DNA from: Austropuccinia psidii
Taxonomy: Eukaryota; Basidiomycota; Pucciniomycetes; Pucciniales; Sphaerophragmiaceae
Direction: 5' to 3'
DNA length: 64,000 nucleotides
NCBI GenBank assembly: GCA_023105745.1
Contig: JALGQZ010000004.1
Location: 11,372,451-11,436,450 of the forward strand
How positions within the stretch are numbered: the stretch's first letter is position 1; each line of letters opens with the position of its first letter. Positions 3,118-56,435 of the stretch are shown one piece after another. Under the pieces are notes generated by a model. It had not been told where the DNA came from. It made no database searches and worked only from the letters and a program-made list of their open reading frames with translations. Position numbers and translations under genes: made by a program.

Positions 3118-6100
3118 TTATTTTTCAGGTTTTCTTTCATGTCTGAACCTTCTTAGTAGTTTATCAGCATTTGTTATATCTTTCTCAAGTAGCCATTCAT
3201 CTTCTTGAGTTGAATTTCTATACCTTACAAGGTATTCTCTTTCTTTTTTGTTTCTTGTCCTTCTTTCTTTAAGGACTTTTACTATTTTCTTTTCCTCTCC
3301 TTCTTCCAAGGGGGGAATCTCAAGTGGGGGTTTATTTCTTAGTGGAAATAACTCTTTGTCACTTGAACTGTAAGGTTTTATCAGACTTACAGGGAAAGTT
3401 GGGTGTTTGTTCATTAGTTCACCTGTGAGTTCTAATTGCACAGCATTGGGTCCATGAAGTGCTTTTATCATAAATGGTCCTGCAAAGGAATCTTTCAATT
3501 TCTTTGGGCCTTTTATGTTATTGAAATTAAGGGTTGATACTAAAACCAAGTCCCCTATTTTGAAGTCAGGTGGCTTATGACTTTTATCCCATCTTTCTTT
3601 TGCATATTTAAAAGAATCTTGCATGCATCTGTTTGCATGGTGTCTTGCTTTGTCAAGCATTATCTTGAAACTGCTTGCTGTTGGATGTATATCCACCAAG
3701 TCCTTTTTGAGGGTATCATAAGGAAGTCTTGGATTCCAACCTTTCTCTAGCATTGCTGGTGTTTTGCCAGTAGAAGAATGGATTGATGTCTTATATGCCA
3801 GTTCAAGTGCTGGTATTAGTGTACACCAATCATGGGTAAAACCATCAGAATCTTTGAATTCTAGCCCATAAGCACAGAATCTTCTGATCATATTCTCTAG
3901 GGTCTGTATCATTCTTTCTGCTAGACCATGAGTTTGAGGATGATAAGCTGTTGAGAATGATAATTTTGTCCCAAACAAGTTATGGAGATTTGTCCATAAT
4001 GCTGAAGTGAATTTTGGGTCTCTATCACTTATAATATTTTGGAATAAGCCTGTGTGGCTAATGACTTTATTCCATATCATTATGGCTGTATCCATAGCTG
4101 TGTCATCTTTATGACATGGTAAGAACATGGGAGTTTTACTGTACCTGTCAACTAATACTAGGCATGCATTATAACTCCTGTCTCCTCCTGGAGGTAAAGC
4201 TGTTACCCAATCCATATGAACTATTTCCCATGGGGATTTTGGTTCTTGGATTTGGATCATCATTCCAAATTTCTTTCCTGTGGCTCTGTTGGCTTTTTGG
4301 CATCTGCCACAGGTTTGGCAGTACTCTGCAACATCTTTCTTCCAATTTGGCCACCAAGAGCAGGTTTTCACCCTCTCTAGTGTCCTATCTTCTGAGAGAT
4401 GTCCAGATGCAACACTATCATGACATTCATGTAAAATAGTGTTTATTAGTGTTCCTTCTGTTAAGGCCATAACACATGTGTGTTTTGTTCTATGGTAAAG
4501 GATTCCATCAAGGAGGTGGAATCTTCCTTCATCATATGCTTTTTTCCATATTTCATCTAGTTTTGATGAAAGTGATGGGTCTTTGCAGTCTTTCATTAGA
4601 AGTTGGCTTAAGATATGGCAATTTTTGTCTGTCTTATAGCTTTCTTGAACTTGGTTAAAGAATTCTGTGCCAATGTCTGTAACACATATTCCTTCTATAT
4701 GGTGCTCTTCTTGTGGTACCCATGCTGGATTGTCAGGGGTATTTGCTAGAGCCCATCTGCTAAGACCATCTGCATTTTTATGAATATTTCCAGATTTATG
4801 AACAATAGTCATATTTCCCCTATATTCTTGGATAGCAATTTGCCATCTCAGCATATGTCTATTTGGAGTCTTCATATTTAATAGTGATTTCACAGCATTA
4901 CAGTCTGTGATTACATCAAATACTGTGCCATCCAAATAATAATGCAGCTTTTCTAAAGCCCACACTAGGCATAAGCATTCCATTTGGCTTGCTCCATACC
5001 TTGCTTCTGTTGGCTTTATCTGCCTTGAAATGAAACAAATTGGTCCTTCCACTGGTTTATCATTGATAATTTGTGTTTGGTGAAGTGCAGCGCCTAGTCC
5101 TTCTCCACAAGCATCAATGTACAGTTTGAAAGGTAGTTTCCAATCTGGCATTAGAAGAAATGGGGCATTTGTTAAAGAATTTTTCAATTCTTCATATGCC
5201 TTGACTCTTTCTTCTGTCATCTCATAGACTGTTTGTTGGTCACATAGCTTATACAAGGATTTAGCAATCTTTGCAAAGTCCTTTATATGCTGTCTATAGT
5301 AACCAGCAAATCCTAGAAATGATTGCATTTCTTTTTTAGTTTGAGGCATTGGTTTAAGTAGTACTGCTGCTACTTTATTTTTGTCTATGCCTAGACTAAG
5401 TCCAGATACTACATGTCCTAGGGCTTTCAATTCACTATATGCAAAATGACACTTTTTTAATGAAATTTTCATATTTACTTGGACTATTTTCTGTAGTACC
5501 CTTTCTAGTCTTGTCAGGTGATTTTCCCAAGTTTCTGAGCAAACTATGATATCATCAATGTAGATTATTAACCATCCTTCTGATAATTCTTCAGGAAATA
5601 TGGTATTCATCATTCTTTGATAATGGGAAGGTGCATTTTTTATCCCAAATGGCATTCTTAAGTATTCAAAAATTCCACAATGGACTATTATTCTTAGTAG
5701 TTTCTTGGCATTGTCTGTTAAGACATTTTGATGAAAACCCTTAAGAGCATCCATAGCTGTGATGAACTTAGCTTGTGACAATTGGCTCAATGTCTCATGG
5801 ATTCTGGGTATTGGATATCTGTCTGGAATGGTATAGGTATTCAGGGCTCTGAAGTCTCCTACCATCCTTGATTTTCCATTATGCCAAGTTATAATGACAG
5901 GTGTAGTAACTTCTACTTGCTCATTATGTCCAACCTTTCTTAATACTCCAAGGTCCATTAATTCTTTAATGTGCACCTCTAGGGCTTCTCTAGCTCTTGG
6001 ACTGGCTGGATAAGCAGGTCTTCTTAATAAAGGTGGGTAAGGTTTTTCTACATTAAGAATTATATCCACTTCATGTCCAATTATGGCACCTAGTGGCTCT

Positions 6101-8916
6101 TTGTCAGTTGCAAAGGCATTTTTATACTTAAATAAGAGGTCAATCAATTTTTCTTTCATTTTTTCTGTTAACTCTTGATTGAATTCTGCCTCTCTGAGTT
6201 GTTCAGATATAAAAAGTTCTTTTTCTGGAATTTTTTCCTCATTCTTAATAACTGTGATTTGTTTTTTGTTATTTAAGAATCCAAACTTTTGTCTTTTATT
6301 ATCTCCTATGGTAAAATATCTATCCTTTTGGTTGGAGATATCTATACCATAGATTGATAAGTAGTCATTTCCAAGTATGAAATGATTACTAGTACAGTTG
6401 TCCATTACTACAAACTCTACTTTGATTCTGACACATTGTGAGGGATGAGGAAAAATTAGTGTTAAATCAATTATTCCAAGGGGCTTCATGCTCTCACTTG
6501 CACTACTAAATTTGACACCTTGTATTGGCATAAGTTTTTCTTGCCAGTCTGGGACAATGGTTTTTAAATAACTTTTGCCAACACAAGTGCAATATGCTCC
6601 TGTATCCAAGTTAACCTTTCCTTCTTGGTTATCAACCATAACAATACTAATACTTGATTTTCCAGCTGTATATCCCATTCCTCTTGCAGGTTTGGTTCTA
6701 TACATTTTGGCATCTTGTATGTTTGTCAGATTTGTGTCAGATGTTCCAACTTGTGGCAAGTTTGAGTTAACATCCAGTACTTCATAAATTATATCAATAT
6801 TATTAATTTGTGCATTAATTATATTGATTTCATCACTTTCAGAGCTCTCTGACTCTTCTGTCTCTTTTTCAGAGTCAGATTCCTCTTCTTTGTCATTGTG
6901 GTTTTCTGTTTCCACAATTTCATTAATCTTTGCTTTTTTAAGGCAATTATTGGCTAAGTGTCCAATACCTCCACATTTATGGCATTTTCTTTGCTCATTA
7001 TTGTTGGATGTATTGGGTTTAAAGGATTCTTTTGATTTATCTTTCTTGATAAATGGTTTATTTGGGCTTTTAATGTCCAATTTTTTCCAAGTCCTGCCAA
7101 TTTTTGTTCTTGTCACTATATCTTCTAGTGCATTTATATACTCTTCTGTGGAGCATGGTTCTATACACCTGCTTCTTAGGGCATGTTCTAGTTCCCCTCC
7201 ACATTTTTTAAGTATTTTCATATGCACCATCTTCTGTGACATTTCTGGGTACAGTGCATTAAGCCTTTCAACTTGTTTTAGGAACCAAGTTAAAGGTTTA
7301 TCTTTCTCTGGGTCAAAGAAAGAGTTTTCAAATGCATTTTCTATCTTATACCTCCAGGCATCATTTGCCCACTTGGTGATTATTTCTTGTTTCCACCAAG
7401 ACCAGGTATTTTTACCATTTGTTTGTCTTATGCCATAATACCATCTTTTTGCAGATTTCTCAAACAAAGAATGTAATCTTGCAGTGATTAATTCATCTGG
7501 TATGGCATAATCTTCTTGTAACATGTCAATTGTTTTAATGAATGACATGTGGTCATATTCACCTTCTCCTGTGAATGTTGGCCATTCTTTCAGTTGAGGT
7601 GCTTCCTTCATTAAGACTTGGTTATTATCTTGGTGACTCAAGTCTGTTATGAAAGGATTTGACAATTCCTCTTTTGTTTTAATAGGGCTTCTTATATGGG
7701 AAAATGGTGTTGATAACTTTGGCATATTTAAATTAGCCTCATTAATTTTATCCATTTTTTCAGTAATAAGCCTTATTTCACTTTGAATATCATCTTTCAG
7801 ATGCATTCTTGCTTCATCACTTTTTTCCACATGGTCCAAAAGTAATTTTTGGTGTGATGAAGTCTTTTCTTCAAATTTTTCTACAGAAATACTTAATTTA
7901 TTTAATTTTTCTGTAAGATTGTCAATACTCACATCATAATTGATTGTCAAAGTCTTGTCTTTGATATCTTTTATGTATTTATACAATTCTTGTTGTCCTT
8001 GTATTAATTTTTGAGTATTGTCAATTAAATTTTTTGGTTTATTATTTTCAACAATAAACTTAATGTTGTCAATTTCTTTCTTGTTTTGTACAACAATTTT
8101 TGTTAAAGAAGATAAATTGTTATTTATTTCTTGTAGTGATAATAAACTGTCTTTAATTTCTTTTAGAGGTAATATACTATTTTTAATTTCTGTTAAAGTA
8201 TTTACAACATCTTTGGACAAGGTTATTTCTTTGGGAAATGAGGTTGTCTCATTCTTTGCTCTTCCTTGTCCTTGAATTCCATCAAGGTTCTGGCCATGTT
8301 GAAGACATTGTCCATGGCATCCTTTTGGATTCTTGGGATTCTGTAGCTTGGGGAATATGGTTTCCTCCAATGCTTTTTCTTGTTCTTCTTCCCTTCTTGG
8401 GGAAGTGGGTTGACTTGAGGCTTGCTGGTAGAAGCTACTGGGGCTTCTTCCTTGGTTGCCTCCCTCTTTTTGGCATGATAATCCTTGATTTTTTTGATTT
8501 GAGGTTTGGATGACAGTGGATTCCATCCATTGGAGTATTTCACTATCTCCTCCTCTTTGAGGAACTTTTTCAGGATGTGCCAGGAGTTCATCACTCCTTG
8601 GTGTATTTGAGGCAGCATTTCCCAGTCTTTGTCCTTGTATACTGTGTAATACTGCTTGTACTGGCTCATGTAGATGTCTATCTGAGCCCTCTGAATGTGA
8701 TTTGTACCTGTTTGAGTTACTCATACTTAGTTCCAATTCAGGCTCAGATATTATGGGCATTTCTGGGACTTGCCTTTGGGATAAGGCACTTCCTTGTGTG
8801 GATTCTGTTCCACTGGGGATATTGCCCTTTCTTTTCCCTTTTGAGGGATCAATTCTACTTCTGAGTCCAGCTCCATCTGATTGGATGGAGTATTGGGAAC
8901 CTCTTCTGGTAGTCAT
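3118..8916 (-). CDS. Element A Gag-Pol polyprotein, 1932 aa, intact frame
   Basis: One open frame encodes capsid and all enzymes for copying and integrating the element. Residues 1-230 are Q/S/G-rich without a domain I recognise and overlap ORFX in the +1 frame. Next come a coiled coil (about 230-400), a gag domain (440-610), a CCHC zinc knuckle (C645-C658), aspartic protease with DTG at 771-773, reverse transcriptase (about 980-1170, YIDD at 1119-1122), RNase H (D1268, E1313, D1338, D1383), integrase with a zinc-binding region (about 1496-1540) and catalytic D1569, D1631, E1667 with D-x35-E spacing, and a chromodomain (about 1876-1925). The usual HPQTDG motif reads HPQTHG, so D1663 is His; this is not a catalytic residue. 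The ATG at 8916 gives [10 protein letters not shown], comparable with the starts of B and C. No frameshift separates Gag from Pol. Confidence 0.95.
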
Positions 8917-9140
8917 AATTAAAGAATAAGAAAAAATAAAAGTATTTTAGAATAAAATTCTTTTATGGCAATTTAAAAAGAGGTGCTCACCTTCAGAGTC
9001 TTGAATGGTGGGCCCTGGAAAGTCTAATTTCTTAGCTTTCTTTCTTTTGGTGATAACTGGTGTTGGAGAACTTTGACAAGTTTCTTCCACCAATCTCTCA
9101 ACAGTAGCTTGGTTGTCTTCTGTTGGGTTATCTTCAAACA
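8223..9140 (-). CDS. Element A ORFX: overlapping +1-frame accessory protein, predicted spliced
   Basis: I do not recognise this protein family. A frame offset +1 from Gag-Pol is open from about 8707 to its stop at 8223. It encodes GTNHIQ, IDIY, QYK, MNSW, GWNPL, APVAST and a C-terminal YRIPRIQ...[11 protein letters not shown]...KE block, all conserved in the same +1 frame of elements B and C. The first in-frame ATG (8669) lies inside the conserved part. A leader exon 8991-9140 ends GAAG with donor GTGAGC, and an acceptor AACAG before 8707 joins it in phase (intron 8708-8990, 283 bp), giving about 211 codons. A nearer acceptor in the Gag start (ACCAG, intron 8906-8990) keeps the phase but meets stops after about 50 codons. 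The C-terminus is charged and probably helical. The frame's conservation is visible; the splicing and function are inferred. A +1 ribosomal shift at the AGG codon 8707-8709 is an alternative. Confidence 0.6.
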
Positions 9141-9647: not shown

Positions 9648-11673
9648 TGTAAGGTTTGACTATGAAACAATAAGTAAAAATTACTAATTTATCACTTATT
9701 GTACTCTGAATGTCCTTATAAAATGAATAAATAAGATTAAAATAATCATAATAATAAAGAAATATTATTATTATGGCGTAAAATTATTATATTATTAAAT
9801 AAATATAATAATATAATTAATATTATATAAAAATATAATATTATAAATAATATATTAATATAAAATAATTAATATATTATAAAGCTCTTTATTATTGTTA
9901 CCAACAAATAATAAAGGCGTAAAAAATTGTTTTTTATAAATAAAAAACAATTAATAACAATAATATTACTAATATTAAAGTTATAAATTAATATAAATAC
10001 TATTTATATTAAATAAGAATTATTATGAGTAATAATAAGAGAGAAATTATTATAATAAGATGAAATAACCTACTTTTAACACTTAAGATAATAATTTTGA
10101 GTTATTTTACGCCAAAAGAATATAATACAACCTTTTTAAATTGTATTTACAATAAAAATAAAGAGAATTTACTAAATTTCTTGATTTTACGTGGAAATGA
10201 GCTTTTTAGAGAGATTTATAGCAAAAACAATTAAAGAATTGATTTAATCACGTAAAAATGGTGATTAATGACAAGATGATCTTTGGTCTTTAAGAATATA
10301 AGAGTTTTATATTTAAAGAATAAAGAAATTACCTTTTATTTAATTGATTTAATGTTTTTGATGCGTCTGAGGGGAAAACAGAGTAAAAAGAGCTCTATTT
10401 ATAGTAAATACCTCCCTCCTAGAGTCCAACAGGCTTCTAGTAGACGTGTACTGATCATATCCACTGGAATTTATCAATATTTTAAGGTTTGAGGGTGATT
10501 ACATCATGATCAAACCATATTACATCATTATTACACCATCATTTAGAGTTATCACTATAACTCTAAGTGTGATGACATCAGAGGCTTGGCAGAACCCCAA
10601 ATTTCGTGGATTTTATTAGTTTTAATCATAAACTAATAGTATTCACCAATTTTATCACTCTTAAGACTGTTAAACTTAATTTAAGGTTACAGTATGTGAT
10701 CATAACAGCTCAATTTAAGCTCAAACTTTGATCCTCAATAACTTTTAAGGTTTTCACGCTACAGCAATTCAGAGAGTGAATTCTGATAGCCTGACATAAC
10801 CTTATTATGCTGTCAAGAGCTTTTCATTACATCATCAAAACTCTAATTTTGATGATTTTTCTTGTAACTCATCTTTTCTGTCGAAATTCAATATTTTAAA
10901 CTTCAAACCTTGATTTCAGGGGGTTATACCCTGAATTTAATAATAAAAATTACATCATTCTTCACGAATGAACTAGTAGAATCCAACTGTGTACTTTTTT
11001 TTAAGTTTGGAGCACTTTCACAACAAAGTGGTCAACAGCTCTGTTGATTTTTATCAATATTTCATCATAGGTTTTAACCTTGTTTATAACTTGTAAAATA
11101 AAGTTCATATCTGTGTTCCTACAGTAATTACGTGGTGACTTTATTTTTGGTTCATCATTCTATCATGTATATTTTAGAAGATATTAGCTATGATCACTGA
11201 ATATATGCGTTGACCAAAAAAGTGCATATATTCAGGATAATTCCTTAAGTATTGATTTTGGGAATTAGCTTATTAATTGTTTTATATGTGGATTTTTGTG
11301 GGGAATCCACTGGTACAATTTATTTCACATGTTGTTTCATTAGTTTCTGAGATAAATAAGGTTTTATGGTTTTTATAAGGTATTATACCTTATAATTCCT
11401 TAAATATTGACTTTACAGATATGCCATAAAAATGGTATATGTGTATTTTTCCATGGGGAATCCAATGGTATAATTTATTTCACATGTTCATTCATTGGTT
11501 TTTAAGTTAAACCAATTTTAGTACCAATTTATGGTATTTTTTGTATATTTGAGTAATTATTTTTAGTGTATAATTATTCTAATTAATTTTAATATAATTA
11601 TATTAAAGGTATAATTATTATTAATCTTTTTTGTGACCTTATTGGATATGTGGTCATATCTCAAAGGCTCACA
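9648..11673 (-). repeat. Element A 5' LTR
   Basis: 2,026 bp, the near-identical partner of 977-3000. It carries the element's promoter (TATAAATA at 10396-10403, minus). About 65 nt downstream is a possible 5' splice site AAAAG|GTAATT (intron side begins at 10332), which would pair with the acceptor TTTTTTAG before 9140 in the leader. Confidence 0.93.
10396..10403 (-). promoter_or_regulatory. TATA box in element A 5' LTR
   Basis: The minus strand reads CTATAAATAGAGCTC, a consensus TATA box followed within about 30 nt by a pyrimidine-rich stretch suited to transcription start. The same box is kept in the solo LTR F (41778-41785, plus strand). Confidence 0.6.
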
Positions 11674-17008: not shown

Positions 17009-18386
17009 TTACAAGATTTCGTTGAAAAGATCATTCGATTTGAATACAGATTGACATGATAATAAATTTAACTGGATTAATTGCCAAGTTGGTCTGATTG
17101 GTGATCCATCTCTAGATTTAGTTTTTCTAGATTCAAATGAATTCGGGGGATTGCGATGATTATTTTGAGATTTAAGCAAATCATGAAATTCAGGATGAGA
17201 TCTTCTAGTTAAAAGCGTCTTTTTTGACAAGGTAAGATTTGAAATCTGATTCGATTCGATTGAATTTTTTTGAGATTGAGTTGAATCCGATTGAATTTTG
17301 ATTGGATTTCGAAGGTGATAATGATAAAAAGAGGTAAATTTTTGATATGAAGTTTGTTTTGCTTGAAAAGCCTTTGCAAATCCAGCTGCAAAGACGTCCT
17401 GTTCTTGATCTTGAAACCACGGCTGATATGATGAATTTGACATTGAAGCAGAACGGCGAGGATGGCGAGCAATTTGAGGAAACTTCAAAGTTGAAAAGGT
17501 AGGAGCGGTTGCTAAAGCAGGAAAATGAGAAATAGATTGAGATGAAGGATTAAAAGGCAAGGCTGAACTAGTCAAAGAAGACGTGGTGATAGTCGAATGA
17601 GAAGTCAAAGAATTTCTTCTAGGTAAGCTTGTAGGAGGAGTAGATTGAGGCGAAGGAGATTTAGAGGATATGGAAGAAGGATTTAACGAGATGAATTTAG
17701 ATTTAGGGTCCGGCCGAAGAGTTGCAGAGAGATTAGATGAATTTTGCTTAAAACTTGATGAAGCTAACTGAATAGGTTGAGCTAGACCATATTGACGAAA
17801 GTAAAATTGAGAGATTGAGTTGGAGATGAGATTGTTTTGACAAGTTTCGAGAGCGAATTGCAAGTCAAGATACTTCAAAGGTTTACCGATAACGCCATTC
17901 ATTCCAACGTCATGATAAAGATTTATCTAAATCCAAGCCAAGAGCAAGGTTCAATATTATCATCAACGGATTAGTTGGATGGGAACAAACTAAGACGGAT
18001 GACTTACTTTCCAATGATCCAGATCCGTCGTCACAGCGCAAAGATGCAAAAGATCCAAATGATTCTTATTTCTCAAAATCTTGCAGACCTCGATGCCACT
18101 GATCTCTGGCATGGAGATATCCAAGAAGACGAGATCGATGGGATGATCGTTCAAGATCCCTAAAGCAATCTTGCCAGAAGAAGCTAATCTCAAATGATCC
18201 ACATCGATCCAGTCGAGCAACTTTTTGATCAAAATTTGTTGAATTAATTTCTAAACCAAACAAAAGATTAGCCTGACGACAAGGAGCTTCCAAGGTGGAT
18301 CCAAGGAGACGATAAAATGAAGTTTTACTCACTAAATTCAATAAATTATCGTCAACAATCAAGACCTTTAATTTCTTCTGTGACAT
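17009..18386 (-). CDS. Stand-alone response regulator (receiver domain plus Ser-rich tail), three exons
   Basis: A phosphorelay output protein: its receiver domain accepts phosphate from a histidine phosphotransfer protein. Exons on the minus strand are 18333-18386, 18008-18250 and 17009-17926, joined over introns 18251-18332 (82 bp, GTGAGT...TTTAG) and 17927-18007 (81 bp, GTAAGT...TTTAG, branch-like CTAAT), all phase 0. The 404-aa product has every receiver landmark: D12-D13 in VLIVDDN, phosphoacceptor D62 in VFLDISMPE, T92 in AVTTD and K114 in VIGKP, with spacing like CheY. Residues 130-404 are Ser/Pro/Asn-rich with RRNS and RRSAS, possible kinase sites. No DNA-binding or kinase domain is visible, so it is not SKN7-like nor a hybrid kinase as modelled. 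It is the only apparent host gene here and is less AT-rich than its surroundings. An upstream 25-nt ATG exon followed by GTGAGT (18641-18665) does not join in frame. Confidence 0.85.
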
Positions 18387-31533: not shown

Positions 31534-34500
31534 TCAGGCTTGTGGCCTTCTTTCATGTCTAAATCTTCTTAAGAGTTTATCTGAGTCAGGTATTTCTGAT
31601 TCTGCCATCCATTCATCTTCATGTACTGGATTTCTATATCTGAAAAGATATTCTCTTTGATTTTTACCCCTAAGTCTCCTCTCTTTAATGACTTTCTTTA
31701 TCTTTTTGTCTTCATTCTGTTCTACAGGTGGTACAGTTAAAGGAGTTGGGTTTCTTAAAGGAAACAATTCTTTATCAGCTGGTTGATAAGGTTTTATCAA
31801 GCTGACTGGAAATGTGGGGTGTTTATTTTCTAATTCACCACTCAATTCCACTTGAACTGCATTGGTTCCATGTAAAGCAACAATAACAAAAGGTCCTACA
31901 TAAGAATCTTTAAGTTTCTTTGGGCCTTTGATATTATTAAAATTCAAGGTTGAAACTAGAACTAAGTCCCCTACTTTGAAGTCTGGTACTTTATGACTCT
32001 TGTCCCACTTCTGTTTTGCATAATCAAAAGCATCATCCATACTTTGTTTTGCATGGTGTTTTACTTTATCAAGCATTAATTTGAAGCTGGAAGCTGTAGG
32101 ATGAATGTCAATCAAGTCTTTCCTCAGTGTGTCTGCTGGGAGTCTTGGATTCCATCCTTTTTCTAACATAGCAGGAGTTTGTCCTGTGGAAGAATGGACT
32201 GATGTCTTGTATGCCAATTCTAATGCAGGTATCAGAGTGCACCAGTCATGGGTAAAGCCATCTGAGTCTTTGAATTCTAATCCATAAGCACAAAATCTCC
32301 TGATCATGTCTTCTAAAGTTTGAATCATCCTCTCTGCTAGCCCATCTGTTTGAGGGTGATATGCTGTGGAGAATGATAACTTAGTCCCAAACAATCTATG
32401 AAGATTGGTCCAAAGTGCAGATGTGCATTTGGGGTCTCTGTCACTTATGATATTCTTAAATAACCCTGTATGAGAAATAACTCTACTCCATAAAAGAAGA
32501 GCTGTATCCATAGCAGTGTCATCTTTATGACATGGTAAGAATATGGGAGTTTTGCTATATCTGTCTACAATGACTAAACAAGCATTATAACTTTTGTCAC
32601 CACTTGGAGGAAGTGCTGTGACCCAATCCATGTGAACAACTTCCCATGGGGATTTTGGTTCTTGAATATGGATCATAAGTCCAAATTTCTTGCCTGTACT
32701 CTTGTTTGCTTTTTGGCATCTGTCACAGGTATGGCAATATTCAATGGTTTCTTTTCTCCAAGATGGCCACCATGCACAATTCTTCACTTTTTCAAGTGTT
32801 CTGTCTTCTGACAGGTGTCCATAGTAGATACTATCATGACATTCATGAAGAATGGTATTGATAAGTAATCTACTACACAGTGTCATAACACAAGAATGTT
32901 TTGTTCTGTGGTAAATGATTCCATCAAACAAGTGAAATCTTCCTTCAGAATAGGAATTTCTCCAAACTTCATCAAGTGCATTAACTAAAGATGTATCTTT
33001 GAAGTCTTTATTCAATAAGGAAGTCAAGATATGGCAATTATTGTCTTGTTTATAAGATTCTCTGACCTCCTCAAAGAATTCAGTCCCAATATCAGTTATG
33101 TTAATTCCTTCAATTGAAATCTGTGGTTCAGCTTCCAAAGGTACATAAGATGGGCTATCAGGAGTGTTGGCTAAAGCCCATCTACTAAGTCCATCAGCAT
33201 TCTTGTGAATGTTTCCTGCTTTATGAACTATAGTCATGTTTCCTCTATATTCTTGAATGGCTATTTGCCATCTCAACATATGTCTGTTGGGAGTTTGAAT
33301 GTTAAGAAGTGATTTCACGGCATTACAGTCAGTTATCACTTCAAAAACACTGCCATCAAGATAATAGTGTAGTTTCTCAAGTGCCCATACCAAACATAAG
33401 CACTCCATTTGGCTTGCACCATATCTGGCTTCTGTTGGTTTGATTTGTCTTGAGATACAACAAACTGGTCCTTCTGTAGGTTTGTCATCAATAATTTGGA
33501 CTTGATGTAGGGCTGCCCCTAATCCATCTCCACATGCATCAATGTACAACTTAAAAGGAATATTCCAGTCAGGCATGAGGAGTAAAGGTGCTTCTGTAAG
33601 GGCTTTCCTTATCTTCTCATAAGCTTTAATTCTCTCTTGTGTCATCTCAAATACAGTCTGTTGATCACAGATGCTATAAAGTGACTTGGCTAGAATCGCA
33701 AAGTCTTTCAGGTGTTGCCTATAGTAACTGGCAAACCCAAGAAAAGACATCATTTCTTTTTTATTCTGGGGTATTGGTTTAAGTAGCACTGCTGCTACTT
33801 TGTTTTTGTCAATACCCAAGCTTAAACCAGAAACAATATGTCCTAATGCTTTGAGTTCTTCAAAACCAAAATTGCATTTCTTAAGTGAAATTTTCATGTT
33901 CACTTTTGCAACTTTATGAAGTACTCTTGCAAGTCTTTCAAGGTGCAAAGACCATGAATCAGAACATATGATAATATCATCAATATAAATGATAAGCCAT
34001 CCTTCAGACAATTCTGTAGGAAGGATGGTGTTCATCATCCTTTGATAATGGGATGGAGCATTTTTAATGCCAAATGGCATTCTAAGATACTCAAAAATAC
34101 CACAATGAGTGATAATTCTAAGTAATTTCTTAGCTTTTGGCGTAAAAACATTTTGATGGAAGCCTTTCAATGCATCCATTGATGTTATATACTTGGCTTT
34201 AGACAATTGAGTCAAGGTTTCTTGAATTCTAGGTATTGGATACCTATCTGGAACTGTGTAGGTATTCAATGCTCTGAAGTCTCCAACCATTCTTGACTTA
34301 TCATTATGCCATGCAATAATAACAGGTGTTGTCACTTCAACTTCCTCATTATGGCCTACTTTCCTTAGCACACCAAGTTGGATCAACTATTGGATATGTT
34401 TTTCCAAGGCTTCTCTAGCTCTGGGACTGGCTGGATAAGCTGGTCTTCTAAGTACTGGAGGATATGGTCTGTCAATATTAAGAGTAATATCAACTTCATG

Positions 34501-37236
34501 TCCTCTTATAGCGCCTAATGGTTCATTATCAGAGGCAAATGCATTTTTATATGTGTATAACACATTAATAAGCTCATTCCTCATCTTTTGTGACAATGAT
34601 TGATTAATTTGTGCTTCAACAAGTTGATTAGTCACAAATTCATCTTTGTAAGTATCCTTGACAGAAGATACTACAGATATCTGTTTTGGCATATTGGAGA
34701 AAGCAAATTTTTGTCTCTTGTTATCTCCAATTGTGAAATATCTGTCCTTATGGTTATTTATATCAATACCATAAATATTTAAGTAATCATTTCCAAGAAT
34801 GATGTGCTGAGATGTGCAATTATCCATTACTACAATCTCAGTTTTCATTCTTACACTTCCTGCTGGATGTGGGAATACAATATTAGTGTCCAATATGCCC
34901 AGGGGGTACATATTGTTACTGGCACTACTGAATTGTACACCTTCTATTGGTAATAGATGGTTTTTCCATTCAGGAAGTATAATTTGGAGATAATCTTTGC
35001 CCACACAAGTGCAAAATGCCCCTGTATCCAAATTTACTTTGGCTTCAATATCACTCATCAGAACTGATGTGATACAGGATGCCCCAGCAGTATAACCCTT
35101 TCCTCTAGCAGGTTTTGTTTTACACATTCTGGCATCTTGGATATTGATCAGGTTGCAGCAATCCTCACTGTACTGTGGCAAGTGGGTACGGACTTCTGTG
35201 ACCTCAAAGAAAGCTGAAATGTTCTCAATGGGATAGTCCTCCACTGGTGTATCTTCAGAGACTGCAGAATCTTGATCAGACTCTTCTTTCTCTTCAGTAC
35301 ACTGAATTTCTTCAATGACTTGAACTTCATTGATCTTTGTCTTCTTAGGACAAGTGTTGGCTAAATGTGAAGTACTTCCACATTTATGACACTTCAAGAC
35401 AGGTCTTTCTGGTCTTCTTTCCTTTCTAGGAATCTTCAAGACTATTTTGGACTCTATTGGGTTTTTAATCCAAGTCTTACCAATTCTTGTCCTGGTAATG
35501 ATATCTTCCATAGCATTAATGTAGTCCTCTGTTGAACAAGGTTCCACACATCTGCTTTTGATAGCATGTTCCAGTTCTCCTCCACACTTTCTTAATATTT
35601 TCATATTAATCATAGTGTCAGACATATCTGGGTGTAAAGCAGATAGTCTGTCTTTTTGCTTGAAGAACCAAGTAAGTGGTTTGTCTTTTTCTGAGTTAAA
35701 AATGGCACTTTCAAAAGCATTTTCCATTTTAAACCTCCAAGAATTATTAGCCCATTTGGTAATCACTTCAGATTTCCACCAAGACCAGTCATGTTTACCA
35801 TGATCAATCCTCATTTTGTAATACCATTTCTTTGCAGTTCTGGTAAACAAACAGTGTAATTTTCCCACTATGATTTCATCAGGTATATTAATGTCTTCTT
35901 GCAACATATCAATAGTCCTGATGAATTCAATATGGTTGTATTCTCCTTCACCAGAGAATGTTGGCCATTCTTCTATTTTGGGAATATCTCTTGCAGAGTA
36001 GGCATTTTCTCCCAAGAATGGTGTAAGAATTTCTTTAACAGAGAGTTTTTCTTCAGTTAAAGGTGTAGAATGTCTTGGCATATGTGGTTCATGATTCTTA
36101 TGAATTTGTTCCACACTTGCAATTATCTCATTCTTCAACTTTTGCCTTTCACTGTCACTTTTTGCTAAATGTATAGCAAATTGATTGGTGTTCTCAACTA
36201 TCTTCAAGACATGGTCTTGTAGAGTCTTAAGTTGATCATTCATTTTAAAACGATCTTCCATTTCCTCATGTTGAACTTGGCACATGTTTTCAATTCTTAT
36301 GCAAGAATTGGTAATTAAGTCAAGTTTGGCATTTGTCACTTGGTGTAATTCAATGTATTTCTTGTCATTTTTCTTTGATTCAACTATATCTGATGCAATT
36401 TTAGTTAACTTGTTATCAAGTTTACCAATTTCTACATGAATACTAGTTTGTACACCAATTATTTGCGTGGAAAGTTTCTGTTCATCCTTTCCTGCTCCTT
36501 GGCTGTGAATTCCATCAGAGTTCTGGCCATATTGAAGACACTGTCCACGGCTGAAGGCTCCAATTTGGGGATCCTGTACCCTTGTGGGTAGGGTCTGTGC
36601 CAATTGGCTTTGCCTTTTCCTTTGCCTTGATGGTTCCTGGGACCTTTCTGCTTCTTCTGAGGTCCCTTGGGCTTGTCCTTGAACACTTCTGGATCTGGTT
36701 TGGAGCTGGTAGACGCCACTGGTGCCTCTGTCTCCAAAGCTGGAGTCATTTCCAACTCTTTCTTCTGGTCTATGGATAAAAGACTTTGGTTCTTCAACCA
36801 ATTCTTTATCTTTTTGAACTTGTCTTTGCAAGAAAGGGGGCTCCATCCTCCTAAGAGTTCTATGGTCTTCTCCTGACCCAGAAAGCTCTTGATGTGTAAG
36901 TAGGAGTTCATGGCCCCCTTCCAAAGGCTTGGGCAGATTTCCCACTCTTCTTCCTTGGCTGCTCTGAACCAGTTTTTGTACTGGCATTGATATATTTCTA
37001 TTGCTGCCACCTGAAAGTGGTTCAGCCCTGGAAATATTACCATAAATCAGTTCAGGTTCTGAATTCACGTCAAAATCTGTTGGTACAGACCTTGGGGAAT
37101 GGGGGGCAACTCTGGCATCCTCCAAATGTGTCTTTCTTGTGGAAGACTTGGCATTTCTGGATTTGGTCTTGCCTATTCCTTGTCCACATCCATCTGGTTG
37201 GACCGAATAGTTGCTTCCATTTCTGGTATGCACCAT
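31534..37236 (-). pseudogene. Element B Gag-Pol polyprotein with one in-frame TAG
   Basis: One frame of 1,901 codons with the same order as element A: Q/S-rich N-terminus overlapping ORFX, coiled coil (about 260-380), gag domain, CCHC knuckle (C616-C629), protease DTG at 737-739, RT with YIDD, RNase H, integrase ([21 protein letters not shown]) and chromodomain. It is broken only by TAG at 34387-34389 (codon 950), just before the RT domain, where A and C have Glu in HIKEL. Both sides remain in the same frame with no indel. The upstream product would stop after protease, the downstream part would be RT-RNase H-integrase. The stop is probably a nonsense mutation; readthrough of CAA-TAG is conceivable but the other families have no stop here. 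Confidence 0.9.
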
Positions 37237-37444
37237 TTTTACGTCAATTTAAGGATAAAGAGTAAAAATAAAGATAAAGACACACCTTTTGGTGGTAATT
37301 TATTCTTTTCAGAATTAAATAAGGTGCCTCTTTTAGCAATTTGCACCTCAATACTGTCTTCAGATTCTGCTTCTGAAGATTCAGGACTATTGATGTATCT
37401 TTTACTGAGTCTGTTACCAGCTGCACAGTATTTGATTAAAGACA
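36459..37444 (-). CDS. Element B ORFX: overlapping +1-frame accessory protein, predicted spliced
   Basis: The +1 frame over the N-terminal Gag region is open from 37027 to its stop at 36459. It shares with A and C the series G.NH.Q, IEIY, QYKN, LWKGAMNSY, GGWSPL, APVASTS, YRIPK and [11 protein letters not shown]. The leader exon 37286-37444 ends AAAAG with donor GTGTGT, and the acceptor TTTCCAG before 37027 joins it in phase (intron 37028-37285, 258 bp), giving about 242 codons. An alternative acceptor ACCAG in the Gag start (intron 37223-37285, 63 bp) meets a stop after about 16 codons. The middle is Lys/Gly/Pro-rich, suggesting nucleic-acid contact; function is unknown. The leader exon begins TG after TTTAAG, and joining it to the LTR exon ending CAACAA (38355) would create ATG, giving MSLIKY. 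Confidence 0.6.
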
Positions 37445-37830: not shown

Positions 37831-39750
37831 TGTAAGATGTGACTATGAAACTGATGATAATATTACTATTGATCAACAGTACTATGTCTGTTCTTATGAA
37901 ATATAATAATATAAATTATTATAACCACAATTAAATAATTATGAAATTATTTCTTTCACGTGTTATACACTACTAGTGATTATAACTGTGAGCAGTAATT
38001 GTCTACAAGAATCAATTACAAGAAGAATTTAATAATAAAAACTTCTTTTATTAAAATAATGAAATTATTTTAATATATAATTATCTTTTACAAGAATAAT
38101 TATAAGATAATTCTTGAAGAAAACTATTACTAGAGAAAAACTTTAAGAATTAAAGATAAATGACTCACTAATACTCCAAAGAACTTATTGATAGATAAAA
38201 GTAGAGAAATTTGACATGGAATTGTGGATTTAAGGGATCAAAAGGATATATAACAGTATTACAACAATATATAGTTGGATTCTAGGATTTCACGTCTTTC
38301 TGGATGATTTTGAAAGATTTAAAACACTTAAGAATAGCTTTAACTAATACTTACTTGTTGGTAATAATGCTTTAATAAATTGATAAGATGATGATACGGA
38401 AAAAACAGCAAGAAGAGGCTTCTTTTAAGTCAAAAACAGCTCACAGAGGCGCTCCATGGAGCAAACTGAAAAAACAGTGAGTGAGAAAACAATAAACCTT
38501 TTTGGATTAATGATTGCATCATCTGTTGTCACGTAAGATTATCATAATTACTTAATTGATGCTTTTACGTGACTACCAACCCCAATATGGTTAAGAATAA
38601 AAGGAGTAACAACAGTAAATCTTCTTTTATTATAAAATAATCATTGATTTCTCAAAGTTATCAATGTTATTGCCAATTTCATCACAGGTTTTAATTACTG
38701 TGAATTTTTGAAGATTCAGTGTTTCACGTAGAATGGTCAAAAATGGACGATAAGTAAAACTTTTAATTTTACTAGTAAAACTGTAATTCTTTTTGGTTGT
38801 ACAATAGATAATACAGTTCTTCATTGGTCCTGAAGGTTTCAGAAAGATTAATTAAGAATTGTATTTTTAATGAATTTTTGAAGTTTTTACCTCATTTCTA
38901 TGTAGAATTGCAAATAGCAGTATTTTGCTGGTTGCTATGAGGTAAATCAATGAATATGAGTCCCAAAAGGGTTTTAATTACTCTTTTAGGGTCTAGTCAT
39001 GGAAATTCATCAAGAATTGACGTGGTTACAGGAGTCTAAGTAGCTCATTACCTCCTTGGCACGTCAAAATAGCAGGTTATTTGCTATTTTCTTGTGATTA
39101 CAGTAGGTGTAACTTGGTAACCAAGTTCCCAAAGAGTTTTAGTTTACCAATTGGGCCAAGATGAGCCATGGATCCATGCTCTGGAGCTATCCACGCCTCT
39201 GAGGCCTCAGAAGCTGGGTACCCTGGCTCTCTTTGATGTCTTTTGTCCCCCTTGCCTAATTTTTATGTCAAAATAGTAATTTAAGCTTCAAGTGAGATAT
39301 CCACTATGGGTGTACCAAAAGTCCATGTAAGAATACCATGATATCAAGTGCTCAAAACATGCATAACACTATTCTTAGTGTATATGTAACATGGGATTTC
39401 TCACTTTCCCATTATTTTGGCGTGAAATTAAGAAAAACAAAAGTTTTCACGGATCTTTTATGTGGTATTGATGATGTGGTATTGAAGTATTTTCCATTTT
39501 ACCACCTCAAAGAGTTAATTTGAGCTTATTCACTCTATGGAGCTACCCTAGGTGAATTTTTGTGTAGAATCCAAATCTGGTCTTAAATCCATGGATTTAC
39601 TTACTAAATAAAAAGTTATTCATCTTTTCTGAAATTGAAAATGATGAATTTTGGATATATGCATGACTTATGAGTTTTGCATAATTCAAAATTTCTTTTT
39701 AAGATAATTGTGGCCTATTTGGGTATGTAAAATATACCTCAAGGCTCACA
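37831..39750 (-). repeat. Element B 5' LTR
   Basis: 1,920 bp, the partner of 29475-31393. On the minus strand it contains CAACAA|GTAAGTATTAG with the intron side starting at 38354, a consensus fungal 5' splice site downstream of a TATA-like CTTAAAAGAAGCC. It is followed by the target duplicate CTATT at 39751. Confidence 0.93.
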
Positions 39751-40527: not shown

Positions 40528-42512
40528 TGTGAGCCTTTGAGATATGACCACATACCCAATAAGGTCACAAAAAAGACTCTGAATAATTATACCTTTAATA
40601 TAATTATATTAAAATTACTTAGAATAATTATACATTAAAAATAATTACTTAAATATACAAAAAATACCATAAATTGGTACAAAAATTGGTTTAACTTAAA
40701 AACCAATGAATCAACATGTAAAATAAATTATACCATTGGATTCCCCATGGTAAAATACACATATACCATTTTTATGGCATATCTGTAAAGTCAATATTTA
40801 ATGAATTATAAGGTATAATACCTTATAAAAACCATAAAACATTATTTATCTCAAGAACTAATGAAACAACATTTAAAATAAATTGTACCAGTGGATTCCC
40901 CACGAAAATCCACACATAAAAAAATAAATAAGCTAATTTCCAAAGTTAATACTTAAGGAATTAACCTGCATATATGCACTTTTTTGGTCAACGCATATAT
41001 TCAAGGATCATAGCTAATATCTCCTAAACTATACATGATAGAATGATGAACCAAAAATAAAGTTACCACGTAATTACTGTAAGAACACAGATATGAACTT
41101 TATTTTACAAATTATAAACAATGTTGAAACCTATGATGAAATATTGATAAAAATCAACAGAGCTGTTGACCACTTTGTTGTGAAAGTGTTCCAAGCTTAA
41201 AAAAAAGTATAAATTTGGATTCTACTAGTTCATTCGTGAAGAATGATGTAATCTTTATTATTAAATTCAGGGTATAACCCCCTGAAATCAAGGTTTGAAG
41301 TTTAAAATATTGAATTTCGACAGAAAAGATGAGTTACAAGAAAAATCATCAAAATTAGAGTTTTGATGATGTAATGAAAGGCTCTTGGCAGCATAATGAG
41401 GCTATGCCAGGCTATTAGAATTCACTCTCTGAATTGCTGTAGCATGTAAATCTTAAAAGTTATTGAGGATCAAAGTTTGAGCTTAATTTGAGCAGTTATG
41501 ATCACTCACAGTAACCTTAATTTAAGTTTAACAGTCTTAAGAGTGATACAATTGGTGAATACTATTAGTTTATGATTAAAACTAATAAAATCCACGAAAT
41601 TTGGGGTTCTGCCAAGCCTCTGATGTCATCAAACTAAGAGTTATAGTGATAACTCTAAATAATGGTGTAATAATGATGTAATCATCTCCAAACCTTAAAT
41701 TATTGATCAATTCCAGTGGGTATGATCAGTAAACGTCTACTAGAAGCCTGTTGGACTCTAGGAGGGAGGTATTTACTATAAATAGAGCTCTGTTTACTCT
41801 ATTTTCCCCTCAGATGCATCAAAAACATTAAATCAATTAAATCAAAGGTAATTTCTTTATTCTTTATATATAAAACTATTATATTATTAAAGACCAAAGT
41901 CCACCTTATTATAATCATCCATTTTGACGTGATTTAATCATTTATTTAATTGTTTTTGTTAAAAATCTCTCTAAAAACTCATTTCCACGTTAAAATCCAG
42001 AATAATTTGTAATTTTCTTTATTTTTATTGTAAATACAATTTAAAAAGGTTTTATTTATATTTTTTGGCGTAAAATATTTCAAAATTATTATATTAAGTG
42101 TTAAAAGTAGGTTATTTTCTCTTATTATAATAATTTCTCTATTATTACTCTCTTAATAATTCTCTAATTAATATAAATAGTATTTATATTAATTCATAAC
42201 TTTAATATTAGTAATATTATTGTTATTAATTGTTTTTTATTAATAAAAAGCAATTTTTTACGCCTTTATTATTTGTTGGTAACAATAATAAAGAGCTTTT
42301 TAAATATATTAATTATTTTATATTAATATATTTATTTATTATATTATATTATTATATTTATTTAATAATATAATTATTTTAGGCCATAATAATAATAATT
42401 ATTTATTATTATTATATTTTTAATCTTATTTATTCAATTAATAAGGAAATTCAGAGTACAATAAGTAATAAGTTAGTAATTTTTACTTATTGTTTCATAG
42501 TCAAACCTTACA
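40528..42512 (+). mobile_element. F: solo LTR of the A family, flanks unmatched
   Basis: 1,985 bp from TGTGAGCCTTTGAG to CAAACCTTACA, plus orientation, a diverged copy of the element A LTR with TATAAATA kept at 41778-41785. There is no internal element sequence on either side. The left flank ends ACATT and the right begins ATGAA, so there is no target duplication: the left side is a CACTA-like transposase and the right side the middle of a Gypsy protease on the minus strand. Confidence 0.9.
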
Positions 42513-53200: not shown

Positions 53201-56186
53201 GTCTCTCAATGTTAAGAATGATGTCAACTTCATGACCAATAATTGCTCCCAGAGGTTCTTTGTCTGTAGCAAATGCTCCTCTGTGGTCATACAAAAGGGA
53301 AGAAAGTTCATTTTCTTGTTTATCAGTCAGATGAAGGCTTATCTCAGCCTCATTTAACTGTTCAGACTTGAATTTTTCTAACTCTACGTTGACTGGTGAT
53401 ACTTTGTTTACTGTAATATGTCTTTTAAATGGTAAAAAGGCAAATTTCTGGCGCTTATTGTCCCCAATTGTAAAGTATCTGTCTTTGTTATTATGTAAAT
53501 CTATCCCATACATGATTAGATAGTCATTTCCCAATATAAAATGGGTACTAGAGCAATTTCCCATAACAACAAATTCAACTGTGATCCTTAAATTCCCATT
53601 TATGTGTGGGAATATGACATTGGTCTCAAAGATTCCCAATGCTTTCATTGGGTTACTTGCACTGTTGAATTTTATACCATCAATTGGTAACAATTGGTCT
53701 TCAAAATTTGGTACACAAGTATTAAGAAAAGATTTTCCAACACAAGAGCAGAAGGCTCCTGGGTCAAGCAAAGGTTTGGTGGGCTTGTTGTCAATCACCA
53801 CTTCTGTTATACAGGAGTTACCAGCTGTATAACCTTCTCCTCTGTTTGGTTTTGTCTTCATAAGTTGTGCATCCTGAACTTTTGATAAATCAACTTGACC
53901 ATTGCTCAATTGTGGTAAGTGGGAATAAGATTCCATGATGTCAAAAGTGGAATTGATATTTTCTATATCTTTTGAAGATTCAGAAAATATGGATGACTTA
54001 TCATCTGAATTGTCTTCAATTATGTCTTCTTTTTCAACATCTGGTCCCTTTTCAATGTCAATTTCATTGATTTTCCCCCTTTTTGGACATGTATTGGCTA
54101 AATGGGTGGTGCTTTGGCAAATATGGCATTTTCTGACTGTATCTGCAGATTTATATTTAATATTACTAGAATTTTCTTTGGGGTTTTTGTCCACAGAATC
54201 TTTCCAAGGTGTATTAAATCTTGTTTTGAGATTCACCCTACTAGAACCAATTTTGGTTCTGGTGGTTACTTCTTCTAGTATATTGATAATATCCTCTGCT
54301 GAAGATTGTTCAGTAGTCCTGCTTTTGACAGCATGCTCTAAGTCACCTCCACATTGTGTCAGAATTTTTCTATGGATCATAAATTCTGACATGTCAGGAT
54401 ATAATGCTGTTAATCTGTCCTTTTGTTGGCAAAACCATGGTAAAGCTTTGTCTTTGTCAGCATTAAATTTGGCAGATTCAAAGGCTGTTTCAACTTTAAA
54501 CCTCCAAGCATCCTTTGCCCATTTGTTGATGATTTGGGTTTTCCACCAAGTCCAACTCTGGTGTCCATGTGCTTGTCTTATTTTGATGTACCATCTGTGA
54601 GCTGATCTGGTAAACAAGGTGTTAAACCTGGCTGTTACCAATCTGTCTGGTGATTCAAAATCCTCTTTGATCATGTCAATACCTCTAATGAATTCCATAT
54701 GGTCATACTCTCCTTCACCACTGAAGTGAGGCCATTCTTTAAGTTTTGGAGCTTCTTTCAAGAGTGCTTGGCCCATTGATGGTTCCAAGTTATGAAAAGA
54801 AGTGGATAATTCATTTTTTAATTGTGAATTATCAGGATCCAATACTTGTGGATTCGGAATTCTTGTGCCCTCATTTTGATTTAGAGGTGGAGACATTCTT
54901 GGTAAGGTGTTCAGTATTTGTTCAATGTCATTCATTTTACTGTTGCTACACCTTTGGGAATTTCTGTATTCATGTTGGAAGCTTTGTATTAAATTTATTA
55001 GTTCAATTTTATACATGTCTTCCTTATGTGTCAGTTCTTGCCATAACTCTGTCTGTCTTGTAATATCAGCAGTGACTTGATTCAATTTCATTGATAATTT
55101 TGATACTTCTTCTTGTGAAGCATCAAAACACTTTTTCAAGGCAATGGTATATGTCTTTACTTCAGTAAATGAATTTGAAATGTCATCAAGGACTTTCTTG
55201 TTATCTGTCTTGATAATATTTATGGCTTGTTTAATTCTTGTTTCAATTATGTCATCAATATTGAATTTAGAATATTTATCTGTTAATTCTTTAATAATGG
55301 CAGATTGTTCATTTATTTTATTGTTAGAAGAATTATCATTATTGGAATTTTTAATTGTTCTTAAAACTTTTTCAAAACACATAAGTGTTTCATTAATTTG
55401 GCACAGACTCAGGTTGTTTGTTTTAATGTTGTTACAAATGGTTTCATTTTTATCAGAAAGATGTTTTTTCACGTCATTTATAGCATTATACAACTCTGGG
55501 ATGGAATCAAATATGTCAGAAATCATTTCTGGAACCTTAATCTGGCTTCCTCCTTCTTCTGTAATTCCATCATGGTTCTGGCCATCTGAAATACATTTTC
55601 CATGGCATCCTTCTGAATCTTTGGGATTCTGTAGCCCTGGCTGTAAGGTTTTGGGGCTGGTGCCTTCCCTTTGCCCTTGTTTGGAGTTTGTGGCTGCTTT
55701 TTCACATTGGAATTGCTGCTGCTGGCCACTGGGGCAGTTTTTGGCACTGGTTTGGGTGGTGGAGGGTTGTTTTTCCTCCATTCTAGTGTCAAAAGCATCA
55801 TGTTTTTCTTCTCCATCAATGGATGCCATCCATTGAGCAATTTGCAAGTGTTGGGATGGCCCAAGAATTTTCTTACTGTCAGGTAAGAATTCATGCAATT
55901 CTTCCACAGGTCTGCAAGGATCTGGTACTCCTTGAATTGAAGTGCATTGTTGTATGCACTGTGGCTGGCTTTGTATATGTCCACAGAGGCTTGTTGTGGC
56001 GGTGTCAGCTCTTTTTGAAGGTAAAATAGTATTATCAGCTTCAGAATGACCCAATTTAGTTGTTTGGAAGTCATCAACTGACCCTTTTCCTTCTGTACCT
56101 GGTTGGCCTCTGCCATAATCACGTCTATTACCTTTTTGGGAGCTGCTTGAGGGGTTGTAGCTGGCTCCTGACCTGGTTGAAGGCAT
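50262..56186 (-). pseudogene. Element C Gag-Pol polyprotein with two in-frame stops
   Basis: A single frame of 1,975 codons without indels, with the same domain order as element A: Gln/Ser-rich N-terminus, coiled coil, gag domain, knuckle [14 protein letters not shown], protease, RT (YIDD), RNase H, integrase ([21 protein letters not shown]) and chromodomain. The protease active site reads DPG (D808-P809-G810) instead of DTG. TAG at 51144-51146 (codon 1681) replaces the Trp of SALW in integrase, between its second Asp and the Glu. TAA at 50520-50522 (codon 1889) replaces the Tyr of LIKPY before the chromodomain. The element cannot move by itself. Confidence 0.9.
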
Positions 56187-56435
56187 AATTATGGTTTAAA
56201 AAGGCTTAAAATAGTATTTTTACGTCAAAAAACTTACTATTGGGCAAATTCTTAGCTTTCTGAAGAGTATTACTTATGTCCAAGTTAATTAATTCAGAAG
56301 ATATTGGTTCAGGTTTATTATTTTGAGTCACAATTACAGTACTATTATGGTCTGAATTAATAGTGCTTGCAGGAACAATGCTGGTGACTGTTGAGGCTGT
56401 TTCAATGTTTTCTTGTCTTACCACATTGTCAGACA
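55523..56435 (-). CDS. Element C ORFX: overlapping +1-frame accessory protein, predicted spliced
   Basis: The clearest copy of ORFX. The leader exon 56238-56435 begins TG after ATTTTAG and ends AATA with donor GTAAGT. The acceptor ACCAG (56173) in the Gag start gives a 65-bp intron (56173-56237), and the +1 frame then stays open to the stop at 55523, about 282 codons. A second in-phase acceptor AAAAAG before 56010 matches the one used in A and B (intron 56011-56237, about 228 codons). Conserved blocks: [46 protein letters not shown] and [21 protein letters not shown] do not recognise the family. A helical, charged C-terminus follows a Pro/Lys-rich linker. Conservation is seen; splicing and function are inferred. 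Confidence 0.65.

Follow-up and report, generated by a model that had tools for sequence, protein, structure and literature searches.

Retroviral Rev, Rex and similar proteins are small and basic, are made from multiply spliced RNA in overlapping reading frames, and license the export of unspliced RNA. Retroelement open reading frames (ORFs) that are overlapped in another frame are also known from the sheep retrovirus JSRV (ORF-X) and from DIRS-1. In Cer1, a Ty3/Gypsy-like element of C. elegans, the spliced product CERV is needed for export of the unspliced RNA; it has no obvious homology outside nematodes and a candidate nuclear signal, KRKK (PMC10309623, available part). For shGAG of the Arabidopsis element EVD, the unspliced RNA is mostly nuclear and the spliced RNA mostly cytosolic (PMC8892269, available part). 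Spliced accessory genes of long terminal repeat (LTR) retrotransposons are already known, and what would be new in the case described here is one in a fungus, lying across Gag in the +1 frame. The gene, which we call ORFX, is found in a stretch of 64,000 nucleotides of Austropuccinia psidii, the myrtle rust fungus (contig JALGQZ010000004.1, positions 11,372,451 to 11,436,450; the window), which carries three Ty3/Gypsy elements (A, B and C), all on the minus strand, and in a fourth family, D, met during the collection of copies and showing the same layout. We put the probability that ORFX is a spliced three-exon gene across the Gag start at about 85%, both its structure and its splicing being predicted from sequence.

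The region past the Gag start had been described, in an earlier sequence-only reading of the window, as open in two frames in all three elements, with the second frame the better conserved. Both frames are open on the minus strand at 8223-8707, 36459-37027 and 55523-56010, and the +1 offset to Gag is identical in A, B and C. These intervals start exactly at base 1 of what we place as exon 3, and over exon 3 the description holds; further upstream it fails in A and B, where +1-frame stops stand at about nucleotides 160-195 of Gag, inside the predicted intron 2, and the window copy of B has an extra one near nucleotide 62. The conserved landmarks listed for ORFX recur as given, save that the window copy of A has YRIPR and not YRIPK. 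ORFX is the better conserved frame between families, with 77/190, 61/154 and 68/178 identical residues (A-B, A-C and B-C) against 58/186, 39/146 and 22/73 for Gag, whose N-terminal part is, as reported, rich in Q, S and G, a feature seen in all four families.

The openness of the two frames was assessed by keeping the protein of one frame, permuting its synonymous codons (20,000 shuffles each) and counting stops in the other. With ORFX kept, 5.8, 7.6 and 8.4 Gag-frame stops were expected in A, B and C and none was observed (P = 0.0003, 0 and 0); with Gag kept, 2.2, 3.1 and 2.3 ORFX stops were expected and again none was observed (P = 0.039, 0.014 and 0.040), the third frame having about the expected number. 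Whichever frame is kept, the other is open beyond chance. An origin by chance, with open frames produced by skewed composition and the similarity carried over from Gag, could point to the fact that some antisense frames in the window are open too, but it is contradicted by these shuffles, by the greater likeness of ORFX than of Gag and by the frame-specific constraint given below, and we give it next to no credence.

Copies were found with a degenerate pattern for a Gag motif lying about 500-800 nt downstream of the overlap, plus two other searches. About 100 of the 17,639 places with the Gag pattern were listed, all on one contig, L009-L038 being the first 30 and L039-L055 chosen for unusual variants; L001-L008 were chosen by DNA similarity to the A exon, and L059-L083 by an ORFX motif with a CGN arginine, a choice that enriches for ORFX-bearing copies. 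Stubs (L056-L058), copies with fewer than 900 aligned nt (in the Gag alignments) and LTR rows that were below 60% identity or too short were excluded. The alignments comprised 34, 17, 20 and 6 rows of A, B, C and D, references included. The window copies enter as reference rows; the reference of D is itself the collected copy L049, which is therefore counted twice in the D row counts unless its removal is stated, and row L008 of A is letter-identical to the window copy but lies at another place.

All four families share a predicted plan of a leader exon (exon L, 117-198 nt), intron 1, exon 2, intron 2 (63-72 nt) and exon 3, the phase of intron 1, and likewise that of intron 2, agreeing between families (Table 1). 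In A, B and D the +1-frame stops lie just before conserved ORFX residues, inside a stretch of 63-66 nt that has a donor and an acceptor in the same phase, and upstream of it the +1 frame is again alike (SNQM(D/E)xD in A, B and D; WRMPELPPxP in B and D). Such a stop is present in 57 of 57 rows of these three families. In family C the corresponding stretch, again in that phase, is 72 nt long; the family was at one point taken as intronless, the +1 frame of the window copy being open through the intron, but this was dropped, as other copies carry stops together with a donor and an acceptor in the same phase, and two of them (L065 and L071) have a +1 stop inside intron 2 and are open once it is spliced. 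Intron 2 measures 66 nt in 24 copies of A, 63 nt in 15 of B, 72 nt in 17 of C and 73 nt in one more, and 66 or 69 nt in 5 of D; of the 62 copies with both ends located (an end was not located in 11 others), 61 have an intron 2 divisible by three in length, and the Gag frame therefore reads through it in unspliced RNA. An apparent break of the Gag frame, where three C rows show a gap of one base in intron 2, was an alignment effect, the unaligned copies having all 72 nt.

Table 1. Predicted parts of ORFX and associated features in the three elements of the window (positions are those of the window; a slash marks a splice site).
Feature	Position	Strand	Description
A Gag-Pol ORF	3118..8916	-	start ATG at 8916; RT, RNase H, integrase, Tf2-1-type SH3; CCHC knuckle below cut-off
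A exon L	8991..9140	-	150 nt, AG/TG... to ...GAAG/GTGAGC; predicted from copy constraint and splice sites; joined to exon 2 in P0123, P0124, P0133 and P0136
A intron 1	8906..8990	-	85 nt, holds Gag ATG; 3' site ACCAG/ in Gag codons 3-4; predicted
A exon 2	8774..8905	-	132 nt, +1 frame of Gag; predicted
A intron 2	8708..8773	-	66 nt, GC-AG; would take out +1 stops, Gag frame kept; predicted
A exon 3 with stop	8223..8707	-	stretch flagged by the sequence-only reading; shuffle and constraint tests
B exon L	37286..37444	-	159 nt
B intron 1	37223..37285	-	63 nt, Gag ATG at 37236; predicted
B exon 2	37091..37222	-	132 nt; +1 stop in window copy, open in other copies
B intron 2	37028..37090	-	63 nt, GT-AG; predicted; junction present in database models
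B exon 3 with stop	36459..37027	-	shuffle and constraint tests
B 5' LTR candidate donor of first (non-coding) exon	38344..38361	-	CCAACAA/GTAAGTATTAG; predicted, longest invariant run
C exon L	56238..56435	-	198 nt
C intron 1	56173..56237	-	65 nt, Gag ATG at 56186; predicted
C exon 2	56083..56172	-	90 nt; predicted
C intron 2	56011..56082	-	72 nt; +1 frame open in window copy, stop in some other copies; predicted
C exon 3 with stop	55523..56010	-	shuffle and constraint tests

Intron 1 ranges from 62 to 85 nt and holds the Gag AUG; its acceptor (ACCAG or ACTAG) falls within N-terminal Gag codons that the families have in common. Of 421 pooled row-sites, 399 retain the splice dinucleotide; for comparison, dinucleotides match the reference at a mean rate of 0.81-0.89, depending on the family. 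In 31 of 34 rows of A the intron 2 donor is GC, with AAGT after it in most; replacing the C by T would create TAA in Gag, as is seen in L010, the sole sampled copy with GT. All three exons read through without a stop or gap in 11 of 17 rows of A, 3 of 11 of B, 6 of 12 of C and 3 of 5 of D. Joined, ORFX would have about 255-285 residues, two of its exons overlapping the first 220-259 Gag codons in the +1 frame. The accessory gene proposed from the sequence is coding but, on the predicted structure, larger than proposed and split, the stretch originally recognised being only its last exon.

The first model that we tried was a single unspliced +1 ORF whose internal AUG is reached by leaky scanning past the Gag AUG. 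It could account for 148-residue models starting at MSQYKQYY being the commonest among the listed database matches from A. psidii MF-1, and the first ATG downstream of the Gag ATG indeed belongs to the ORFX frame, with one position for each family, in 28 of 34 rows of A, 15 of 17 of B, 4 of 6 of D and 11 of 20 of C. It fails in A, B and D on the +1 stops that a ribosome starting at this second ATG would meet within intron 2; every open-frame ATG of A and D lies downstream of the conserved ORFX stretch NH(I/F)QxAx(I/V)(D/E)IY; and the evolution of intron 2 as Gag only, together with that of an exon L coding in a frame that joins ORFX only by splicing, is also against it. We consider leaky scanning improbable.

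Substitutions in the 71 rows of A, B and C were sorted by codon position. Changes found in a single copy served as the neutral control, and shared ones mostly arose in elements that were still replicating; shared means at least three copies in A-C and at least two in D, changes in exactly two copies entering the threshold test only. Shared changes in exon 3 number 122, 25 and 36 at Gag positions 1, 2 and 3, meaning that 122 of 183 fall at Gag position 1, which is ORFX position 3. The Gag-only 3' part gives 94/75/212, intron 2 gives 11/6/25, the same pattern as Gag, and exon 2 gives 14/3/14. Counted by ORFX position, exon L has 13/12/55, and neither the 5' flank (13/13/8) nor intron 1 (9/15/8) has a third-position bias. 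Single-copy changes are nearly flat (223/184/182 in exon 3 and 68/61/69 in exon L), and the shared and single distributions differ in exon 3 (P = 4e-11), exon L (P = 2e-6), intron 2 (P = 0.003) and exon 2 (P = 0.016) and not in the 5' flank (P = 0.39) or intron 1 (P = 0.17). Family D, with the duplicate removed (5 distinct rows), agrees with A-C, having 29/7/5 in exon 3 and 0/1/4, few changes in all, in exon L. Sharing thresholds of 2, 3 and 4 all give this pattern, and transversions taken by themselves give it too, though in smaller numbers.

Sorted by their effect on the two proteins, changes in exon 3 that are silent in ORFX but nonsynonymous in Gag are 107 shared and 107 single, against 35 shared and 296 single for those altering both (P = 2e-24), and ORFX-silent changes that make a Gag stop are 0 shared versus 15 single (P = 6e-5). 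Because shared changes peak at ORFX position 3 and ORFX-silent changes to a Gag stop are absent among them, we conclude that ORFX is under purifying selection and bears most of the constraint in the overlap, and that the Gag frame in exon 3 is mainly held free of stops, its amino-acid constraint being weak. Near the Gag start, in exon 2, both frames look constrained; the substitutions of exon L are those of a coding sequence, and those of intron 2 fit Gag only. With openness beyond chance and constraint on the second frame, ORFX and Gag are an overlapping, dual-coding gene pair; on the predicted structure, 575-698 nt of Gag would be read in two frames. The suggestion that an unrecognised accessory gene causes real dual coding is thus borne out by a many-copy, frame-specific constraint test akin to the one it had called for, with the qualification that the two frames are kept unequally.

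This inequality bears on a version of the story that accepts the gene and its splicing but sees in the overlapped part of Gag a disordered, passive tail that is only kept open and is overprinted by ORFX. The 107/107 against 35/296 counts and the Q/S/G-rich Gag N-terminal part of all four families favour it; the absence of shared Gag-stop changes, the mild favouring of Gag-synonymous changes in exon 3 (odds ratio 1.84, P = 0.035, A-C) and the pattern in exon 2, which looks constrained in both frames, pull the other way. Overprinting is compatible with a spliced ORFX, and we regard it as an even bet.

Exon L was found through database proteins that match the first 60 residues of the joined A protein, continue into the leader and skip the Gag start. 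The leader of each family has an island that begins AG/TG and ends in a donor (117, 150, 159 or 198 nt) and that, in the reference copies, has no stop in the phase meeting exon 2. Ty3 uses a programmed +1 frameshift between Gag and Pol, and a shift of this kind from the Gag N-terminal codons, with no splicing, would suit both the +1 offset in every family and the presence of those codons upstream in frame 0. It leaves unexplained the coding signature of a leader exon upstream of the Gag AUG and the shared donor and acceptor signals, and no slip site common to the four families was found by eye, a systematic search not having been made; the leader exon and the intron pattern led us to drop it as very improbable.

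From the putative transcription start, judged by eye from TATA-like boxes, up to Gag, the leaders contain 1 ATG in 1455 nt (A), 2 in 1165 nt (B) and 2 in 1070 nt (C), where dinucleotide shuffles give means of 13.9-15.0 and the reverse triplet CAT occurs 19-25 times; the leader of one D copy has 0 ATG and 25 CAT in 1525 nt. This depletion fits scanning of the unspliced RNA to the Gag AUG. With so few ATGs, D offers ORFX no ordinary upstream AUG and A only one, which opens 17 codons. A start codon could be built by splicing in B, whose LTR block CCAACAAGTAAGTATTAG, 18 nt long, is the longest invariant run among 11 aligned rows, bar a 4-nt gap in one copy (the next-longest, of 17 nt, lies upstream of the likely transcription start): the candidate donor CAACAA/GTAAGT, joined to exon L, would yield an AUG at the junction. 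Database protein P0240 starts M-SLIKYC, as such an AUG would give, but reads on into intron 1. As an observation apart, the leaders of A, B and D, otherwise AT-rich, share a block near ACACGTGGNTTTTTCACATC about 400-570 nt upstream of Gag, less exact in D, which is perhaps a packaging or structural signal.

Gene models in the protein database agree in part with the spliced structure. ORFX of A has 834 matches at E <= 0.01, of which the 120 listed are hypothetical proteins of A. psidii MF-1. For the joined B protein, 64 of the 120 matches listed, out of 147, have the exon 2/exon 3 junction motif (58 when the motif is written in a second way), and 26 of these 120 are exactly 232 residues long, the length of exon 2 (from its ATG) spliced to exon 3. 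The B models P0140, P0142 and P0143 join exons L, 2 and 3, and among A models P0121 joins exon 2 to exon 3, with the joining of exon L to exon 2 found in the four models named in Table 1. If the spliced gene is right, many proteins annotated as hypothetical in A. psidii are probably fragments of a single transposon gene. How the MF-1 models were made was not found in the available parts of PMC12874498 and PMC7951889. A further B-type model, P0172, fuses ORFX to the Gag frame and has the precomputed Pfam label PF27605.1.

Taken together these data point to a scheme in which one RNA could serve two ends. Unspliced, it would be scanned through the nearly AUG-free leader to the Gag AUG and give Gag-Pol, the same RNA being the genome; spliced, it would lose the Gag AUG with intron 1 and the +1-frame stops with intron 2, and ORFX would be made instead of Gag-Pol. 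Extended further, this would be a switch of the complex-retrovirus type in a fungal retrotransposon, with an AUG-purged leader that restricts unspliced RNA to a start at Gag, splicing that deletes the Gag AUG and may build A/UG, and an ORFX, overprinted on Gag, that feeds back on what becomes of the unspliced RNA; we consider the extended scheme, as a whole, rather unlikely.

Several observations weigh against the spliced gene or parts of this scheme. The A models P0123, P0124, P0133 and P0136 stop within intron 2, P0122 and P0129 have different joins, a single exon (exon 3 alone) from MSQYKQYY is the most frequent A model among those listed, and the B models P0144, P0145 and P0146 depart from the scheme in part; moreover the database models may have been predicted ab initio from the very signals used here. 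The relatives listed (120 of 834, 19 of 19 and 120 of 147) name A. psidii only, close copies filling the lists. Splice dinucleotides are not everywhere above background, the AG of intron 1 in A being kept in 29 of 34 rows with a background of 0.89, and none of the 77 rows lacks at least half of intron 2, so that no retrocopy of a spliced RNA is among them. As for the start codon, exon L begins x/TG and gains an AUG only if the upstream exon ends in A, its TG is lost in 3 of 21 rows of A, the best LTR donor of A and that of D have G as their last base, and the donor in C is ambiguous. A splice-built AUG in all families was given up on account of the donors of A and D, which, with G before GT, lend it no support, and is kept only as a possibility. 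The function proposed for ORFX, discussed below, is drawn by analogy.

The elements that carry ORFX are Ty3/Gypsy LTR retrotransposons, with a putative Gag knuckle, reverse transcriptase (RVT_1, 6e-24), RNase H (RT_RNaseH, 7e-27), an integrase downstream of the reverse transcriptase (Integrase_H2C2, 2e-18; rve, 4e-8) and LTR-type direct repeats 8.67, 8.36 and 8.25 kb apart. The zf-CCHC match in Gag, at 18.4 bits, is below the cut-off of 20.8, and the match to the C-terminal chromodomain that marks chromoviruses reaches 14.2 bits (Chromo, E = 0.042) for a cut-off of 25.1. The Gag-Pol frame of A is uninterrupted in the window; that of B is broken at 34384-34389 and that of C at 51141-51146. Elsewhere in the window, long stop-free stretches of 305 and 828 codons (17009-17926 and 42840-45326, minus strand) have no Pfam match at E <= 0.01, and open frames of 216-251 codons run antisense to Gag-Pol, on the plus strand, at 55081-55836, 53929-54600 and 6788-7438. 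A partial third copy of the LTR stretches of family C, 80-86% alike, lies at 61941-62410. Paired repeats of 82-83 nt, 155 nt apart and about 78% alike, occur once on each LTR side of element A (2601-2837 and 11275-11511) and recur on the other strand near element B (40681-40918, reversed).

As to what the protein does, ORFX is basic, with a pI of 9.3-9.6, and has a lysine-rich stretch ahead of a PYxxxYRIP-like motif (both from one copy of each of the four families). Exon 3 alone has no Pfam match near the cut-off, and its structure model (mean pLDDT 74) is confident only for a small helical bundle with a weak likeness to the MIT domain, no greater than common helical bundles show. The structure search brought out no other fold, which says little. 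By analogy with Cer1 CERV and retroviral Rev, we propose, as the likeliest role though at less than even odds, that ORFX is a nuclear protein working on unspliced RNA of its own element, by export or by protection from splicing. Just as tentatively, the same spliced accessory protein might have a role other than export, such as recruitment of host membrane or ESCRT machinery, or a limit on copy number like that set by Ty1 p22.

If the spliced gene is real, it is a regulatory gene in a fungal Ty3/Gypsy element, and how an element that needs unspliced RNA can also use splicing becomes testable. ORFX may belong to the elements that inflated this genome of 1,015,390,075 bases, given the 17,639 places of the Gag-core pattern, and the switch, if true, would be present in thousands of copies, many of which are dead, and may have contributed to the growth of the genome to 1 Gb.

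Among known systems, ORFX as predicted resembles Rev and Rex, by description, in being a small basic protein from a spliced RNA with overlapping frames; unlike those of Rev, which overlap env and tat, its exons overlap gag. Rev and Rex are recognised by an arginine-rich motif that binds RNA and a leucine-rich export signal; what ORFX has is the lysine-rich stretch given above. JSRV ORF-X and the DIRS-1 ORFs belong to other element groups and overlap pol, not the gag start. In the titles and abstract openings of the literature searched, no description of an overlapping or spliced accessory gene at gag was found, and the available parts of two papers on rust transposable elements (PMC8063080, PMC12210899) contain no word starting with gag. 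Ogre, which has a functional intron, and the orchid elements with a demethylase ORF are likewise Ty3/Gypsy elements with extra ORFs, but the accessible parts of their accounts describe no overlap of these with Gag in another frame (PMC6431247, PMC12786077). As with shGAG, splicing would separate two products of one LTR element, whereas the spliced RNA of EVD gives more Gag, in the Gag frame, and no different protein (PMC8892269, available part). The closest likeness is to CERV, an accessory protein from a multi-exon spliced mRNA in an element whose unspliced RNA is both genome and Gag-Pol mRNA, as predicted splicing would make ORFX; one CERV exon has its own frame, and the KRKK of CERV has a counterpart in KRKKAKK, read in exon L of A (PMC10309623, available part). 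ORFX differs in being confined to the 5' end, where it uses the +1 frame of Gag, and it is likened to CERV by layout, the export role of CERV having been tested experimentally.

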